From: Pontibacter kalidii
GTDB taxonomy: Bacteria; Bacteroidota; Bacteroidia; Cytophagales; Hymenobacteraceae
Length of the DNA stretch: 64,000 bases
Direction of reading: 5' to 3'
Assembly (NCBI RefSeq): GCF_026278245.1
Contig: NZ_CP111079.1
Span: 4,770,501 to 4,834,500, forward strand
The notes below the pieces were generated by a model. It ran no database searches and was not told the origin of the DNA. It saw only the letters and a program-made list of their open reading frames with translations. The translations under genes and the position numbers were made by a program. Each line of letters opens with the position of its first letter. Within the stretch, counting starts at the first letter, position 1. Of this stretch, positions 570 through 53,281 are shown piece after piece.

Positions 570-1200
570 GAAGGCGGAGTTGATTGATAAGGTGCTTTGT
601 CCTAAGCTGGCGTAGCTGCAGTTTGTCATCGGTTTATACTTCGGCTATACTTTATACTTCCATGGTGCAAGCGTCCGCTTGTGGCTTTGCTGCCGCTGTT
701 TCCCGTGAATTGAGACAAGCTATCCTTACTAGCTACAGTTCATCCACGGCTTTACAACCTGCATTGTTTCACCTCTGACTTTGGCTCGCTCAAGCCCGCG
801 AGGGCTCGTCTTCCCGCATCGCGCTGCTTTCGCTTCCTGCCCTCGTGCCTCGGGCTGCCTCGCTGCCGCTCGTCACAGGAACCTCTCGAGGCGCTCAACG
901 GAAAGACTGGGACCAGATTCTATAGCCACCGCTATTTGTCATCTCGACCTTTGGGAGAGATCACTTTAGAATTCCCGATAGATCCTCTCGCACTGCTCGA
1001 GAGGACAGGGAGTGTGGCAAGTATGATTCCCCTCCTTGGAGGGGTTAGGGGTGGGTTCATACTTTGTAGGGACAGATCGCGACCTGTCCGCTTTCGGCAG
1101 CAACTATGAAACTTGTACTTCAGCTAAAGCAATGACAGGCTCCCCTCCTTGGACAAGGAGGGGTAGGGGTGGTTGGCCCCGGTACTTTAAACCAAGATTT
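570..1200. repeat. Intergenic repeat island 1
   Basis: This 630-base stretch between two genes holds no convincing coding sequence. It is a mosaic of modules that recur elsewhere. There is a hairpin-string segment (about 600-690) with AAGCGTCCGCTTG-type palindromes. A roughly 300-base composite (about 690-1012) is in inverse orientation to the copies near 31.0 and 52.6 kb. A second composite (1026-1180) starts with the 32-bp GGGG-type repeat and contains the palindrome-like GGACAGATCGCGACCTGTCC (1070-1089). Three TATACTT words lie in about 30 bases near 636-662. Short open frames at 584-778 and 781-969 lie wholly inside the repeats and are not counted as genes. Confidence 0.8.
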
Positions 1201-20510: not shown

Positions 20511-21095
20511 GCCAGTATCAGGATTTCAAGATGAGCAGGATGTATACTTCTACTCCTGCCGCAAGATTAGCGAAAGCGTAAATGTGGTTGGGGTTGGCCG
20601 CAGTTTGTAACTGCTTTGCAAAAGCTACAATCGCTGGCGCTATAGAGTATACTTTGGCTGGAGCAGTCGGAAGTATACATCTGCTCACGTATACTTTTCT
20701 GCTTCCGCAGAAAGCAAGTTGAAAACTTGCGTCAAGTACAGCCACATTTACACTGCGCTAAACTTGCGGCAGGAGAGTGTTTTATACTTTGGCTATAGCA
20801 TTTATACTTGACGTATAGTAGCAGCCGAATCCCCTCCTCGGAGGGGCTAGGGGTGGGTTATAATTGTAGAGGTAGGGACAGGTCGCGACCTGTCCGCGCA
20901 AGAACAGCAACTATGAAACGTATACTTTGGCTAAAGCAGTTACAGGCTCCCCTCCTTGGATAAGGAGGGGCAGTTGGACCCGCTAAAGTCATTCACCCTG
21001 AGCACCTTTTACAAACCTGGAAATCCTGATTTAGACAATTCATTTAATATTTTATCTTTGCGTATTACACTTCTCATTCACCTTAAAACAAAACT
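20511..21095. repeat. Intergenic repeat island 2
   Basis: A gene-free stretch. It contains short hairpins (TCTGCTTCCGCAGA, GCAAGTTGAAAACTTGC) and several AAGTATA/TATACTT words. A second copy of the composite seen at 1026-1180 occupies 20828-20979: the 32-bp GGGG repeat (20828-20859), GGACAGGTCGCGACCTGTCC (20876-20895), CAGCAACTATGAAAC and a variant hairpin repeat (20945-20976). Confidence 0.75.
21053..21060 (+). promoter_or_regulatory. Putative -7 element of the acyl-CoA dehydrogenase gene
   Basis: TATCTTTG fits the TAnnTTTG consensus 36 bases before the ATG. The -33 position has TTTAG rather than TTTG. Confidence 0.45.
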
Positions 21096-22274: not shown

Positions 22275-22530
22275 TCGTTGATCGTTATTCGTTGCTCGTT
22301 ATTCGGGTGGCGGTTAAAGTATAAGTTGCGATTTACTGATGCAGAGCAGGTGTAAACCCACCCCTGAGAGCAGCGCTCGCTAGCTCAAAACTCGCGTTTT
22401 GGCTAGTCCAGAGGAGGGGAATCGCCTGTTATTTTGCAAAATTCCCCTCTTGGGAGGGGCAGGGATGGGTTAATCGAAACTTGAGTTATAAAGTATAGCA
22501 AAGGCAGCTGCGGGAGTAGCTGCCTTTTTA
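22275..22530. repeat. Repeat cluster before the DUF559 element
   Basis: Three parts can be seen. There is a CGTTATTCG-rich short repeat. An inverse copy of the 32-bp GGGG repeat (22355-22421) is split by about 38 bases that themselves form a hairpin (CTAGCTCAAAA/TTTTGGCTAG). A forward copy lies at 22441-22472. The word AAGTATA appears twice. Confidence 0.7.
22500..22530 (+). terminator. Rho-independent terminator
   Basis: Arms 22500-22509 and 22518-22527 form a 10-bp stem AAAGGCAGCT/AGCTGCCTTT followed by TTAA. It probably ends the acyl-CoA dehydrogenase transcript after the repeats. Confidence 0.75.
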
Positions 22531-22562
22531 ATTCCCCTCCTTGGAGGGGTTAGGGGTGGGTT
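22531..22562 (+). repeat. Left terminal inverted repeat of the DUF559 unit
   Basis: A 32-bp copy starting ATTCCCCTCCTTGGAGGGG and ending TAGGGGTGGGTT. The stop codon of the minus-strand DUF559 gene begins at the next base. Confidence 0.75.
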
Positions 22563-22934
22563 TTACTTCTGCTGGTTGGCTCTTATCCATGCTTCAATTG
22601 TTCGAAGCACGTTACTCAACTCTTGTTTTACTTCCCTATCATCAAACCGCAGGAATCTTATCCCAAGTTTTTCTAAAGCTGCCTGCCGCTTTGCATCTTC
22701 TTCAAAGCTATAGTCGTGGCTATCGCCATCTACTTCAATTGCTAATTGTAGCTCTTTGCAATAAAAATCAATTATAAAGCTATCCAGCGGTCTTTGTCTG
22801 TCAAAGTCATAGCCAAGAAGTTGGCGGCCCTTCAGTTCATTCCAAAGTATAACCTCGGACAATGTACTGTTCTGTCGCAGTTGTTTTGCCAGCTCTTTTA
22901 AGTATGGCTCGTAGGGGATGATTTTGCTTTTCAT
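22563..22934 (-). CDS. DUF559 Vsr-like endonuclease-domain protein
   Basis: A 123-residue protein of the DUF559 family, which shares the fold of Vsr/very-short-patch-repair nucleases. The PD-(D/E)xK-type core is visible: FIIDFYCKELQLAIEVDGDS supplies the Asp and the Glu-Val-Asp, followed by HDY, then KRQAALEKLGIRFLRFDDREV. The conserved N-terminus NSTLSEVILWNELKG is also typical. It fills the space between two inverted copies of a genome repeat. Its native role is unknown; a nicking or resolving role on repeat hairpins is my inference. Confidence 0.88.
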   Translation of the reverse strand: MKSKIIPYEPYLKELAKQLRQNSTLSEVILWNELKGRQLLGYDFDRQRPLDSFIIDFYCKELQLAIEVDGDSHDYSFEEDAKRQAALEKLGIRFLRFDDREVKQELSNVLRTIEAWIRANQQK

Positions 22935-22946
22935 CTGAGTACGATT

Positions 22947-22978
22947 GACCCACCCCTAACCCCTCCGAGGAGGGGAAT
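22947..22978 (-). repeat. Right terminal inverted repeat of the DUF559 unit
   Basis: The inverse copy, reading CCACCCCTAACCCCTCC then GAGGAGGGGAAT on the plus strand. It differs from the left copy in the loop (CG against TT context) and at the outermost base. Confidence 0.75.
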
Positions 22979-23030
22979 TGTTCCTCCACTATTTTTTGGG
23001 GCTAAAATTTATAAACGTTGCCCATAGTCA

Positions 23031-23540
23031 CTACTCCTCTTCCTCCTCCCCATACTTATCTTTATACTTTTTGCCCGGCACGTACTTCATCATACTTTCC
23101 CAGAGGCGGTCGAACTCGCGGCTGTAGTCCTGCACAATGCTGAGGTTGTCGGTGATAAGAATGTTTTCGTGGTTGTAGAGGGCGGCGCTGCGGGTCCAGT
23201 TGTAGCTGCCGGTGAGCACGCGGGCCTCGTCAAAAATGGCGAACTTGTGGTGCATGTGGCTTCGGGTTTTATCTATCCGCACCTCCAACCCCCGTACAGC
23301 CAACTCCCGGACATCTGAGCCGGTGTCGTGGAGTTTGTTGTTATCGGTGATGATCTTTATACTTACCCCACGTCGGTGCGCTTCCAGAATGGCCTCCGTA
23401 ATGCGGTTGTCGCTGATCGTGAACACGCAGATCTTTATACTTTTCCCGGCCTGCTCCATACTTTCCACGATGGCGTTGAGGCAGTCGTCGCCGGGGCTGA
23501 AAAAGGCGTGGCTCGTAATTCTTTGCTGATGACGTTGCAT
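23031..23540 (-). CDS. Phospholipase D-like (single HKD) protein, probable nuclease
   Basis: A 169-residue PLD-superfamily protein with one HKD motif (HHKFAIFDEARVLTGSYNWT), like the nuclease Nuc and mitoPLD, which act as dimers. The N-terminal part has the usual LNAIVESMEQAGKSIKICVFTIS fold start. There is no signal peptide, so it is probably cytoplasmic. The C-terminus ends in five Glu residues preceded by a Lys-rich segment. It stands alone between the DUF559 unit and ruvB. Confidence 0.85.
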   Translation of the reverse strand: MQRHQQRITSHAFFSPGDDCLNAIVESMEQAGKSIKICVFTISDNRITEAILEAHRRGVSIKIITDNNKLHDTGSDVRELAVRGLEVRIDKTRSHMHHKFAIFDEARVLTGSYNWTRSAALYNHENILITDNLSIVQDYSREFDRLWESMMKYVPGKKYKDKYGEEEEE

Positions 23541-31009: not shown

Positions 31010-31822
31010 TCACCTCACCCCAACCCTCTCCTAGAAACAGGAGAGGGAGTTTATACTTACTCCTTTCCCTATCATCTCGAGCAGGGCGAGAGATCTATCC
31101 GGTATTCTAAAGAGATCTCTCCCAAAGGTCGAGGTGACAGTAAGGCAGCAGCTATCGAATCTGAACCCAGTCTTTCCGTTGAGCGCCTTGTGAGATCCGG
31201 TGCTCAACTTGTTGAGCAGCCGTAGCGCAGCGGAGGCAGGAGGGAACACAGCGCGATGCGGGAAGACGAGCCCTCTCGGGCTTGAGAGCAGAATGCATGA
31301 GATGAAACGGTAGGTTTGTGGAAACTAGAGGATCAGCAGTAGCTACAAAGTATAGCTTGTGTCAAAATGCAGGAAGCAGCGGCTAAGAAAGTATAAGCAA
31401 AGAATAAAGTCTGGCACAAGTATAAACCGGTAAGTATAAAAGTGTGGCTCGTGCGGATTACAAATCCGCGGCTATTATACTTCCGGATTGCAAATCCGAA
31501 AGAGCGGAAGCGAGTATGGCTCTGCGTGCCAGTCGGGTTGGAAACCCAACAAATAAAAAGACACGGGCTGCAAGCCCGCGGCAGCGTGGAAAGTATAAAG
31601 TATAGCAGCAAGTATAAAAGTATAGCCAGAGCAAGTATGGCTTTTCAAGCCAGTCGAGTAAGAGAGTCGACACCTACTGTAGGATATAAGTCTGAAGATT
31701 CGCGCCAGGAAAGAACTTGCGCCAAATGAAGTGGATGAAAAGAAGTCAGGAATAGCATTACACTTTCACTATATGCCTGAATCACCACCTGAATTTTATA
31801 CTTTACAGAATCCACTGAAAAC
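31010..31822. repeat. Intergenic repeat island 3
   Basis: It starts with a hairpin CCCTCTCCTAGAAACAGGAGAGGG (arms at 31023-31047 region), then the roughly 300-base composite (about 31060-31345) with GAGAGATCT and CTCGTCTTCCCGCATCGCGC-complement segments. A hairpin string follows (31440-31690) with CGGATTGCAAATCCG, GTTGGAAACCCAAC-like and GGCTGCAAGCCCG palindromes. Five AAGTAT words lie in 31591-31638. No gene is supported. Confidence 0.75.
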
Positions 31823-44081: not shown

Positions 44082-44251
44082 TTTTGGTTGTCGGATGTTA
44101 GTTATTGGTTATTAGGTTCTGATAATTCCTCTCTTGGGAGGGGTAGGGGTGGGTAAACAGGAACCGTTTAAGTATAAACCCCCATCTCTCAGTAAGAAGT
44201 ATAAACAGAGGCACAGCGCAAGTATAAAGCCGCCTCAAAGTAAAGTATAAC
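44082..44251. repeat. Short repeats between holB and hemC
   Basis: It includes a GTTATTGGTTATTAGG stretch, one solo copy of the GGGG-type repeat (44124-44154, slightly degenerate) and four AAGTATA words (near 44169-44245), the last just before hemC. Confidence 0.65.
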
Positions 44252-52297: not shown

Positions 52298-53281
52298 AAG
52301 AAGGAGCTGCCTTATAGTAGGCTCTCCCCGCTACTTACATCAGGTATATAAATCCTCGAACCATCTGTTAAAAAAGAGGGAGTCCGGCATTACCGGGGCC
52401 AACCACCCCTGCCCCTCCTTATCTTTTTCGAGGGCCCCTACCCCCAGGAGGGGAGACTGTCATTGCTGTGGATGAAGTATGAGCTCCGTATCTGCTGGTA
52501 TCGCTCGGACAGGTAGCGACCTGTCCCTACAAGTATAAACCCACCCCTGACCCTTCCATGGAGGGGAATTTAACCTCACCCCAGCCCTCTCCTAAAAACA
52601 GGAGAGGGAGTTATACTTACCTCTTCTTCCCTGTCATCTCGAGCAGGGCGAGAGATCTAGGCGGAATTCTAGATAGATCTCTCCCGATGGTCGAGATGAC
52701 AGCAAGGGCCGAGGCTATCGAATCTGATCCCAGTCCTTGGGTTGAGCGCCTATGCGAGTTTTTCTGGTGACGAACGCGAGTGAGGCAGCCCGAGGTACGA
52801 GGGCAAGAAAAGCTCCCAGCGCGATGCCCGGGGACGAGCCCTCTCGGGCTTGAGAGCACCAAAGTCAGAGATGAAACAATAGGCTTGTAAGGCAGAGGAT
52901 GAACAGTAGCTAGCAAGTATAGCTTATTTCCAGTTGCGGCAAGCAGCAGCAAAGGCACAAGCGGACGCTTGCACCAGCGGAAGAATGAAGTATCACTTAA
53001 GTATAAAAGTATAGCTGAAGTGTAGCAGCACAGCCAAAGTATACAGTATGGCGTTTCGAGCCAGTCGGGTTACAAACCCAACGAATATAAAGGCACGGGC
53101 TGCAAACCCGCGCCAGCGAGTGGTGTAGCTTGTATCAAGCTGAGAAAAGCGGAAGCTATGGGAGTATGGCCCAAGTATAAAGCATGGCTCTTCAAACCAG
53201 CCGGGGCACATACGCGACACCGTATAGGACACAAGTCTGAGTACTTGCGCCAGTAGCACCATCCTTACCCTAATCCACTAC
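52298..53281. repeat. Intergenic repeat island 5
   Basis: The largest gene-free stretch, 984 bases. It carries an inverse copy of composite 1 (52395-52569): a hairpin with expanded loop, then GGACAGGTAGCGACCTGTCC (52508-52527) and the 32-bp GGGG repeat (52538-52569). The CCCTCTCCTAAAAACAGGAGAGGG hairpin and the 300-base composite (about 52573-52915) follow. A hairpin string (about 52940-53255) includes GTCGGGTTACAAACCCAAC-type units and AAGTATA words. Confidence 0.75.

Follow-up and report, generated by a model that had tools for sequence, protein, structure and literature searches.

In REP-associated tyrosine transposase (RAYT/TnpA-REP) systems, inverted copies of a repeat scattered through intergenic DNA, the repetitive extragenic palindrome (REP), flank a small nuclease gene in a unit termed the REPtron, and each enzyme group has its own repeat, which occurs in both solo and paired copies (PMC6006769). 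Here we describe a unit of similar architecture from Pontibacter kalidii, located in a 64,000-nucleotide stretch of contig NZ_CP111079.1 (assembly GCF_026278245.1, positions 4,770,501 to 4,834,500) that is referred to below as the window. Its gene belongs to the DUF559 (PF04480) family and is predicted to encode a Vsr-like nuclease. In this genome and its relatives, inverted repeats bracket most solo DUF559 genes, and these repeats are specific to this nuclease family, share a mirrored three-block grammar, and are inherited type for type with the nuclease. Unlike the RAYT enzymes, the window protein has no HUH/Y1 domain. The repeats differ as well, since a GTAG guide and a hairpin make up the REP whereas the repeats of the window unit have a mirrored G-rich third block (as read by eye), and their triplex motif is found at none of 58 Y1_Tnp flanks from the same genomes.

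BoxC, PIT and related triplex repeats were described as early as the 1990s, but no mobiliser is known for them. These motifs are frequent in certain Enterobacteria and Cyanobacteria (PMC4666352), and transposase or integrase remnants are reported never to have been found around them (Holder 2015, PMC4666352). An oligonucleotide of one of them, TM_ECO, forms a triplex (Holder 2015, PMC4666352). The repeats of DUF559 units share the three-block grammar and intergenic position of the BoxC/PIT/TM motifs, some of which also form inverted pairs (Holder 2015, PMC4666352). No partner gene is named in the parts of that study consulted (Holder 2015, PMC4666352), whereas the present data link these motifs to a family of nucleases. 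No link between DUF559 and triplex repeats was found in searches of one open-access library, which takes in no bioRxiv preprints and few subscription papers.

On the protein side, the model of the window protein has the same predicted fold as I-Bth0305I (3r3p), which we take to be a member of the EDxHD family. EDxHD enzymes are listed as a family of homing endonucleases (PMC6083498). I-Bth0305I was deposited as a mobile intron protein, whereas the window unit is intergenic and bracketed by repeats. Vsr and the DUF559 protein VsrA of Caulobacter share the fold and the E/D/D/H/D residues with the window protein, but their known or proposed site of action is the T:G mismatch within a methylated motif, and the relevant sections on them describe no association with repeats (PMC12907096). 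YcjD of E. coli has been placed among the PD-(D/E)XK nucleases (PMC1189080). Miniature inverted-repeat transposable elements and insertion sequences likewise have terminal inverted repeats at the element edges and short copies devoid of genes, but the window unit encodes no known transposase, and no target duplication could be resolved as the spacers diverge. The unit is therefore set apart from RAYT/REP systems and insertion sequences by defining features that it lacks, a distinction of association and not of mechanism.

The DUF559 Unit of P. kalidii

The left terminal repeat of the window unit (22530..22561, plus strand) is 32 nt long and of the type termed D. It consists of a pyrimidine arm CCCCTCC, a loop, a purine arm GGAGGGG, the bases TTA and a third block GGGGTGG oriented to the gene, and matches the triplex finder at 22534-22559 with 0 mismatches. 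The right terminal repeat (22948..22979, minus strand), also of type D, is inverted relative to the left one and matches at 22950-22975, again with 0 mismatches. A first-pass annotation made from the sequence alone had recognized two inverted 32-bp repeats pairing at 30 positions; length and orientation hold, but the arms are complementary at 31 of 32 nt (97%), and the coordinates given were one base off. That annotation was right that each end has a hairpin of its own, which is seen in both arms, and that the repeats abut the gene, whose stop codon adjoins the left repeat and whose start codon is separated from the right repeat by 13 bp. The repeat was also correctly called genome-wide: a pattern derived from it, with up to 3 mismatches allowed, has 143 matches in the 5.05-Mb genome compared with 0 for the reversed pattern, and 5 in the window compared with 0 in 100 shuffles.

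The gene between the repeats (22563..22934, minus strand) encodes 123 amino acids and is assigned to the Vsr-like PD-(D/E)XK nucleases by its profile match and predicted structure. It matches PF04480 at 103.8 bits (curated cut-off 20.6); the only other Pfam match, MTES_1575, falls below its cut-off, and the protein holds no known transposase domain, with no Y1_Tnp (HUH) match at E ≤ 0.001 in the Pfam search. PADLOC returned weak matches only for this protein (best mREase_II, 0.00016), and two phage records match it, at 36.6% and 32.2% identity. The predicted structure has a predicted local distance difference test score (pLDDT) of 91.6, and the closest neighbour of the model is 3hrl, followed by the homing endonuclease I-Bth0305I and Vsr. 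In alignment A4, D56, D69 and D80 are invariant, and E27 and H73 are at least 90% conserved; we equate window E27/D56/D69/H73/D80 with E73, D102, D115, H119 and D124 of VsrA. The ratio of nonsynonymous to synonymous substitution rates (dN/dS) is 0.04-0.13 in 13 of 16 nuclease pairs, the other three being saturated and several more having dS > 1.5. The aligned genes thus indicate purifying selection on the nuclease, with its predicted active-site residues conserved.

Bracketing of DUF559 Genes

PF04480 occurs at four places in this genome, and all three solo genes are bracketed by inverted repeats. The window unit and the one at C1:1231081 agree in both repeat and geometry, while the third solo gene (C1:3992574) differs in its repeat and has the geometry reversed. 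At the fourth place the domain is part of a larger open frame without such flanks. DUF559 is present in 42 of the 59 related genomes searched. The 113 loci collected (4 from this genome, 29 and 80 from relatives, with two places repeated) comprise 112 units, 99 of them solo and 13 in larger frames, where solo denotes a frame of fewer than 160 amino acids from the chosen ATG, a limit set after the results had been seen. For loci L044 and L049, longer stretches around the same positions (L202 and L203) were used instead, and a few weak or short matches in relatives were left out.

An inverted-repeat (IR) score of at least 14 is reached by 91 of the 99 solo genes, by none of the 13 larger frames and by 2 of 123 control open reading frames (ORFs) of 80-200 amino acids, for which only DUF559 loci of 4.2 kb or more were sampled. 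When one unit is kept per genomic context, 38 of 40 reach this score; contexts were defined by shared flanks, and some clusters merge neighbouring sites, so that 40 is a cautious count. The idea that flanking repeats are a feature of any small gene is rejected by the control ORFs and by these one-per-context counts. One larger frame, L056 (705 amino acids from its ATG), is doubtful, as it scores IR 27 when measured around the DUF559 domain alone, and the long open frame may simply contain a solo gene. In five loci (L059, L144, L187, L189 and L190) the DUF559 gene has stops or frameshifts and the flanking repeats are still there. DUF559 was also found in 39 plasmid-collection records, of which 12 were analysed.

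Triplex Grammar and Specificity of the Flanks

The repeats beside DUF559 genes differ in sequence but follow a single rule, namely a pyrimidine arm, a loop, a purine arm, a few bases and then a mirror of the purine arm, in which T may replace A (e.g., GGAGGGG followed by GGGGTGG). In 112 of the 131 hairpins with G-rich tails, the third block is matched better by the mirror, and in 6 by a direct copy; counted per distinct arm with such a tail, the figures are 28 and 5, and over all 306 hairpins they are 139 and 45, with 122 ties. By their sequence, the window repeats are therefore intrastrand-triplex motifs of the BoxC/PIT/TM type. This triplex grammar, and the reach of the nuclease-repeat pairing over many phyla, go beyond what the first-pass annotation had described.

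The triplex motif is present in 165 of 197 solo DUF559 flanks (70 of 80 with one unit per context), compared with 12 of 849 control windows and 0 of 21 larger-frame flanks. The control windows are of any kind and mostly coding, which makes the flanks of Y1_Tnp and GIY-YIG genes from the same genomes the fairer control; 30 loci of each were taken, of which 29 and 28 were long enough, and the GIY-YIG set includes some large UvrC-like frames. The motif occurs in 0 of 58 flanks of the former and 3 of 56 of the latter, and the kind of flank described at the window unit is thus rare beside these unrelated genes; the same flanks beside unrelated genes at the same rate had been named with the initial annotation as an outcome that would refute it. 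Inverted repeats of other kinds are seen at 12 of the 29 Y1_Tnp loci. Solo GIY-YIG genes are bracketed by another dispersed repeat (TGTCATTTCGAA...) in 9 of 28 cases at IR ≥ 18 (L106-L109, L112, L115-L117 and L119), all nine with a TGTCAT-type core, and possibly form a third nuclease-repeat partnership. Because the inverted flanks of Y1_Tnp and GIY-YIG genes are of other kinds, the class of repeat follows the family to which the nuclease belongs.

Co-inheritance of Nuclease and Repeat

Both flanks could be typed in 80 units; the two sides agree in repeat type and geometry in 66 of them and are mismatched in the other 14, often through a second repeat kind nearby. The third block points outward in types A and B and inward in types C-F. 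When the repeat labels are placed on a tree of 93 nucleases, types A, B and C each fall on one side of a branch, and the labels require 14 changes compared with 55.7 for shuffled labels, none of 200 shuffles giving a count as low as 14. Nine of the 93 rows have labels outside the counted groups, and short or broken pieces were left out; the tree has few columns and many weak forks, and orthologous sites within it are not independent.

Copy number follows nuclease type in part. Over 37 genus genomes, repeat copies are highest where the cognate nuclease is present for types B (p = 8.5e-5), D (p = 0.002) and E (p = 0.007), and more weakly for type C (p = 0.016), statistics that ignore the relatedness of the genomes. 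Median copies with and without the nuclease are 2 and 0 for B, 36 and 3 for D, 12 and 3 for E, and 20 and 8 for C. In this test the types were assigned by hand for 37 of 50 genomes, type D excluded the D2 clade, and repeats of type A were omitted. Repeat number, whose independence of the gene had been named at the outset as an outcome that would refute the idea, is not independent overall (Spearman 0.71 between units and repeats over the 37 genomes), although there are exceptions; the four genomes without DUF559 have 0, 0, 3 and 18 repeats of types B-E.

Gain and Loss at Fixed Sites

In four of five pairs of unit copies, similarity stops about ten bases or less from the outer edges of the repeats (L058/L147, L176/L182, two copies in L169, and L002/L003, the window unit and its own paralogue). 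In the fifth pair (L063/L148, two copies in one genome at 96.3% identity), similarity continues past the edges.

The presence of the unit varies at fixed sites. All 50 genus genomes searched match a 2.6-kb query around the window unit, a count of matches in which both flanks were not checked for each genome; among the matches listed, the unit is present in G000, G013 and G063 and partial in G034. Remnants of the unit were read by eye at the window site in G014 and G034, and the spacers of L308, L309, L312, L313 and L317 at this site have no triplex motif. In G030 and G066, the unit at the window site (22490-22985) has the opposite orientation with respect to its neighbouring genes. Nine genomes were searched for the site of a type E unit of G014; in the seven that have both flanks (six of them aligned) the unit is absent, and the spacer of G012 at this site is 469 bp shorter, about the length of the unit. 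Clean empty sites were also sought at L167, Sinorhizobium Ak57, Azospirillum and E. coli ycjD, and no exact junction was found at these loci. In Azospirillum, 7 of 7 records cover at least 99% of the query, and L335 has about 1.1 kb extra.

Two further observations concern the sites themselves. A single intergenic site may hold different repeat and nuclease types according to species (L058/L159/L154/L174/L057/L062; L164 vs the L001 group). At L167 (G031, about 1967-2348), a type C unit lies in a RAYT-like (Y1_Tnp) gene and replaces about 220 bp relative to seven such loci.

Other Phyla and E. coli ycjD

The association extends to other phyla. The set examined is the best 80 of 549 confirmed relatives, found with a 5-row alignment and so biased to that subfamily. 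The triplex motif is present in 78 of 140 flanks compared with 11 of 391 control windows, and on at least one side in 60 of the 80 loci, from Cyanobacteriota, Chloroflexota, Bacteroidota, Pseudomonadota, Desulfobacterota and others (taxa grouped by us from record titles). Among the 60 loci with both flanks, the motif is on both sides in 18, on one side in 30 and on neither in 12.

The ycjD gene of E. coli is itself a DUF559 gene, and in strain TG1 a motif lies 167 bases downstream of it. Because ycjD presumably maps near 29 minutes on the K-12 map, we take this motif for TM_ECO no. 9. Its sequence is identical to TM_ECO nos. 9, 16, 19 and 22, of which no. 9 is listed at 29 minutes (Holder 2015, PMC4666352). 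The gene is polymorphic in the sapF-fabI region of E. coli (L216-L223): the ycjD query is covered to 80% or more in 3360 of 5426 genomes, the copy in HH97 is frameshifted, and the five alleles read that lack ycjD have a major facilitator superfamily (MFS) transporter and an efflux gene in its place. In Erwinia mediterraneensis (L300, 1856-2656), about eight tandem triplex repeats with a period of about 103 bp lie downstream of a DUF559 gene. In Sinorhizobium (L213 and L334), hairpin repeats lie downstream of a DUF559 gene and no triplex match is seen; S. meliloti Ak57 retains a truncated form of this gene, shortened by a deletion ending in the hairpin, which is not an empty site.

Interpretation and Alternative Explanations

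The repeat-gene-inverted repeat unit is probably a self-spreading or repeat-spreading partnership, in which a Vsr-like nuclease recognizes its own class of triplex-forming repeat. Two copies would bracket the gene, and those elsewhere would be non-autonomous offspring and remnants. The repeat could fold while single-stranded, during replication or transcription, and the nuclease would nick or cut at the foot of its folded cognate repeat. Host repair, by gene conversion or template switching, might then copy the repeat, or the whole repeat-gene-repeat, to a new place. By analogy, our best reading is that the unit works like RAYT/REP, with a nuclease of unrelated fold and chemistry. The parallel to REP/RAYT and IS200-type units drawn in the first-pass annotation thus holds for architecture and specificity and in part for copy number, but transposition of the IS200 kind appears less likely than break-and-copy, because a Vsr-type hydrolytic nuclease, unlike a Y1 transposase, is not expected to join strands alone.

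Several results weigh against this interpretation. Cleavage and mobilization of the repeats by the nuclease are inferred from association and co-inheritance, and the genomes are related, so that counts are not independent. DUF559 genes lacking the flanks, which the first annotation had set as a check on itself, do exist: 91 of 99 solo genes are bracketed, but 8 of the 99 and all 13 larger frames stay below IR 14, and 7 of the 12 plasmid-collection loci reach it. Type C repeats track the D nuclease better (p = 0.005) than their own, and G005 has 18 repeats of types B-E with no DUF559 match. The gene-bracketing copies, which are included in the counts, may make up most of the type B effect, although they are not most of the D, E or C effect. 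Across phyla, 26 of the 60 two-flank loci reach IR 14, the motif is missing from 20 of 80 loci (some being cut by contig ends), including 4 of 8 from alphaproteobacteria, a Sinorhizobium DUF559 locus has no triplex motif, and ycjD in TG1 has the motif on one side only. At the window site and the G014 type E site, where they were sought, no exact junction or target duplication was found, the spacers diverging between species. In this genome, 30 solo type D copies were read: for 15 of them the surrounding 300 bp hold no other triplex repeat, and neighbours are co-oriented in 15 cases and opposed in 5, so that doublets like those of other genomes are not typical of this one. Finally, duplex DNA and in vivo footprints gave no support for a stable triplex in the experiments reported on these motifs (Holder 2015, PMC4666352).

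The nearest rival is a homing-type selfish gene, whose nuclease would cut an unoccupied target, perhaps a solo repeat, with recombination copying the unit in and most solo repeats being remnants. This may be the same process viewed from the target side, and we give it a real but minor share of the probability; the repeats far exceed the units in this genome (143 pattern matches compared with 3 solo genes), a surplus that remnants alone explain poorly. If DUF559 instead served as a maintenance enzyme, clearing triplex or hairpin obstacles or repairing mismatches as Vsr does, the repeats would regulate or terminate the gene. The predicted Vsr fold would suit such a role, as would the proposed part of Caulobacter VsrA, a DUF559 protein, in mismatch repair (PMC12907096). 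Nevertheless, inverted bracketing is not predicted by it, and the patchy presence at fixed sites, the several types per genome, the stops or frameshifts in some units and the symmetric, element-like ends make it improbable.

It is more doubtful still that DUF559 is a passenger riding between repeats that a different enzyme, for example a RAYT, sets in motion. Of the 59 genomes searched, 46 do have Y1_Tnp genes, and a RAYT-like gene harbours one DUF559 unit, but the main DUF559 clades differ from one another in their repeat, purifying selection acts on the nuclease, and the inverted repeats at Y1_Tnp loci are others. The lack of the triplex motif at all 58 Y1_Tnp flanks disfavours in particular a passenger on RAYT repeats.

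Taken more broadly, a repeat-spreading role would make DUF559 the missing partner of the BoxC/PIT/TM repeats. The proposal that these units form a new minimal class of mobile element, in which a Vsr-fold nuclease spreads a three-stranded fold by break-and-copy, and of which GIY-YIG with TGTCAT repeats is a further case, stands in our judgement at an even balance. If true, Y1 transposases would cease to be the only nucleases in such partnerships with repeats, and REP-like ones would have arisen at least three times with unrelated nuclease folds. DUF559 is a strong candidate for the spreader of a widespread repeat of unexplained origin, and a candidate gene is present even in E. coli K-12, making the question directly testable. 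A family named for a domain of unknown function gains a likely substrate, and the finding suggests a dedicated bacterial enzyme that recognizes triplex-forming DNA.

Other Repeat Copies and Neighbouring Features

The triplex finder gave 17 overlapping matches at eight places in the window, compared with 1, 0 and 0 in three mononucleotide shuffles; one of the eight (983-1015) bears no resemblance to a repeat copy. Solo type D repeats matched by both pattern and triplex finder lie at 1029..1055 and 20831..20857 (both plus strand). At 52540..52608 (minus strand), a type D repeat (52540-52566, one mismatch) is adjacent to one of another type (52573-52608), as found by pattern and triplex finder. 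The solo copies placed by the first-pass annotation near 1026, 20828 and 52538 correspond to these pattern matches. Those at 22355, 22441 and 44124 are visible but degenerate and below the threshold: two lie beside the unit, at 22354-22423 (with a long loop) and 22440-22473, were assigned from sequence to repeat families D1, D2 and I3, and have no triplex-finder match, and the third (44124..44154, plus strand) was likewise recognized from sequence, with no pattern or triplex-finder match. The triplex finder also detected a type A-like solo repeat (1142..1175, plus strand, 1 mismatch) and a solo triplex repeat of another type (ACCTCACCCCAACCCTCTCC..., 31012..31047, minus strand).

Among the matches listed for solo type E copies in G001, G059, G060 and G062, several inverted pairs with a start-to-start distance of about 82 bp were read by eye, uncounted, and resemble non-autonomous doublets. 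Beside the window unit lies a PLD-like gene (PF13091) at 23031-23540 on the minus strand.
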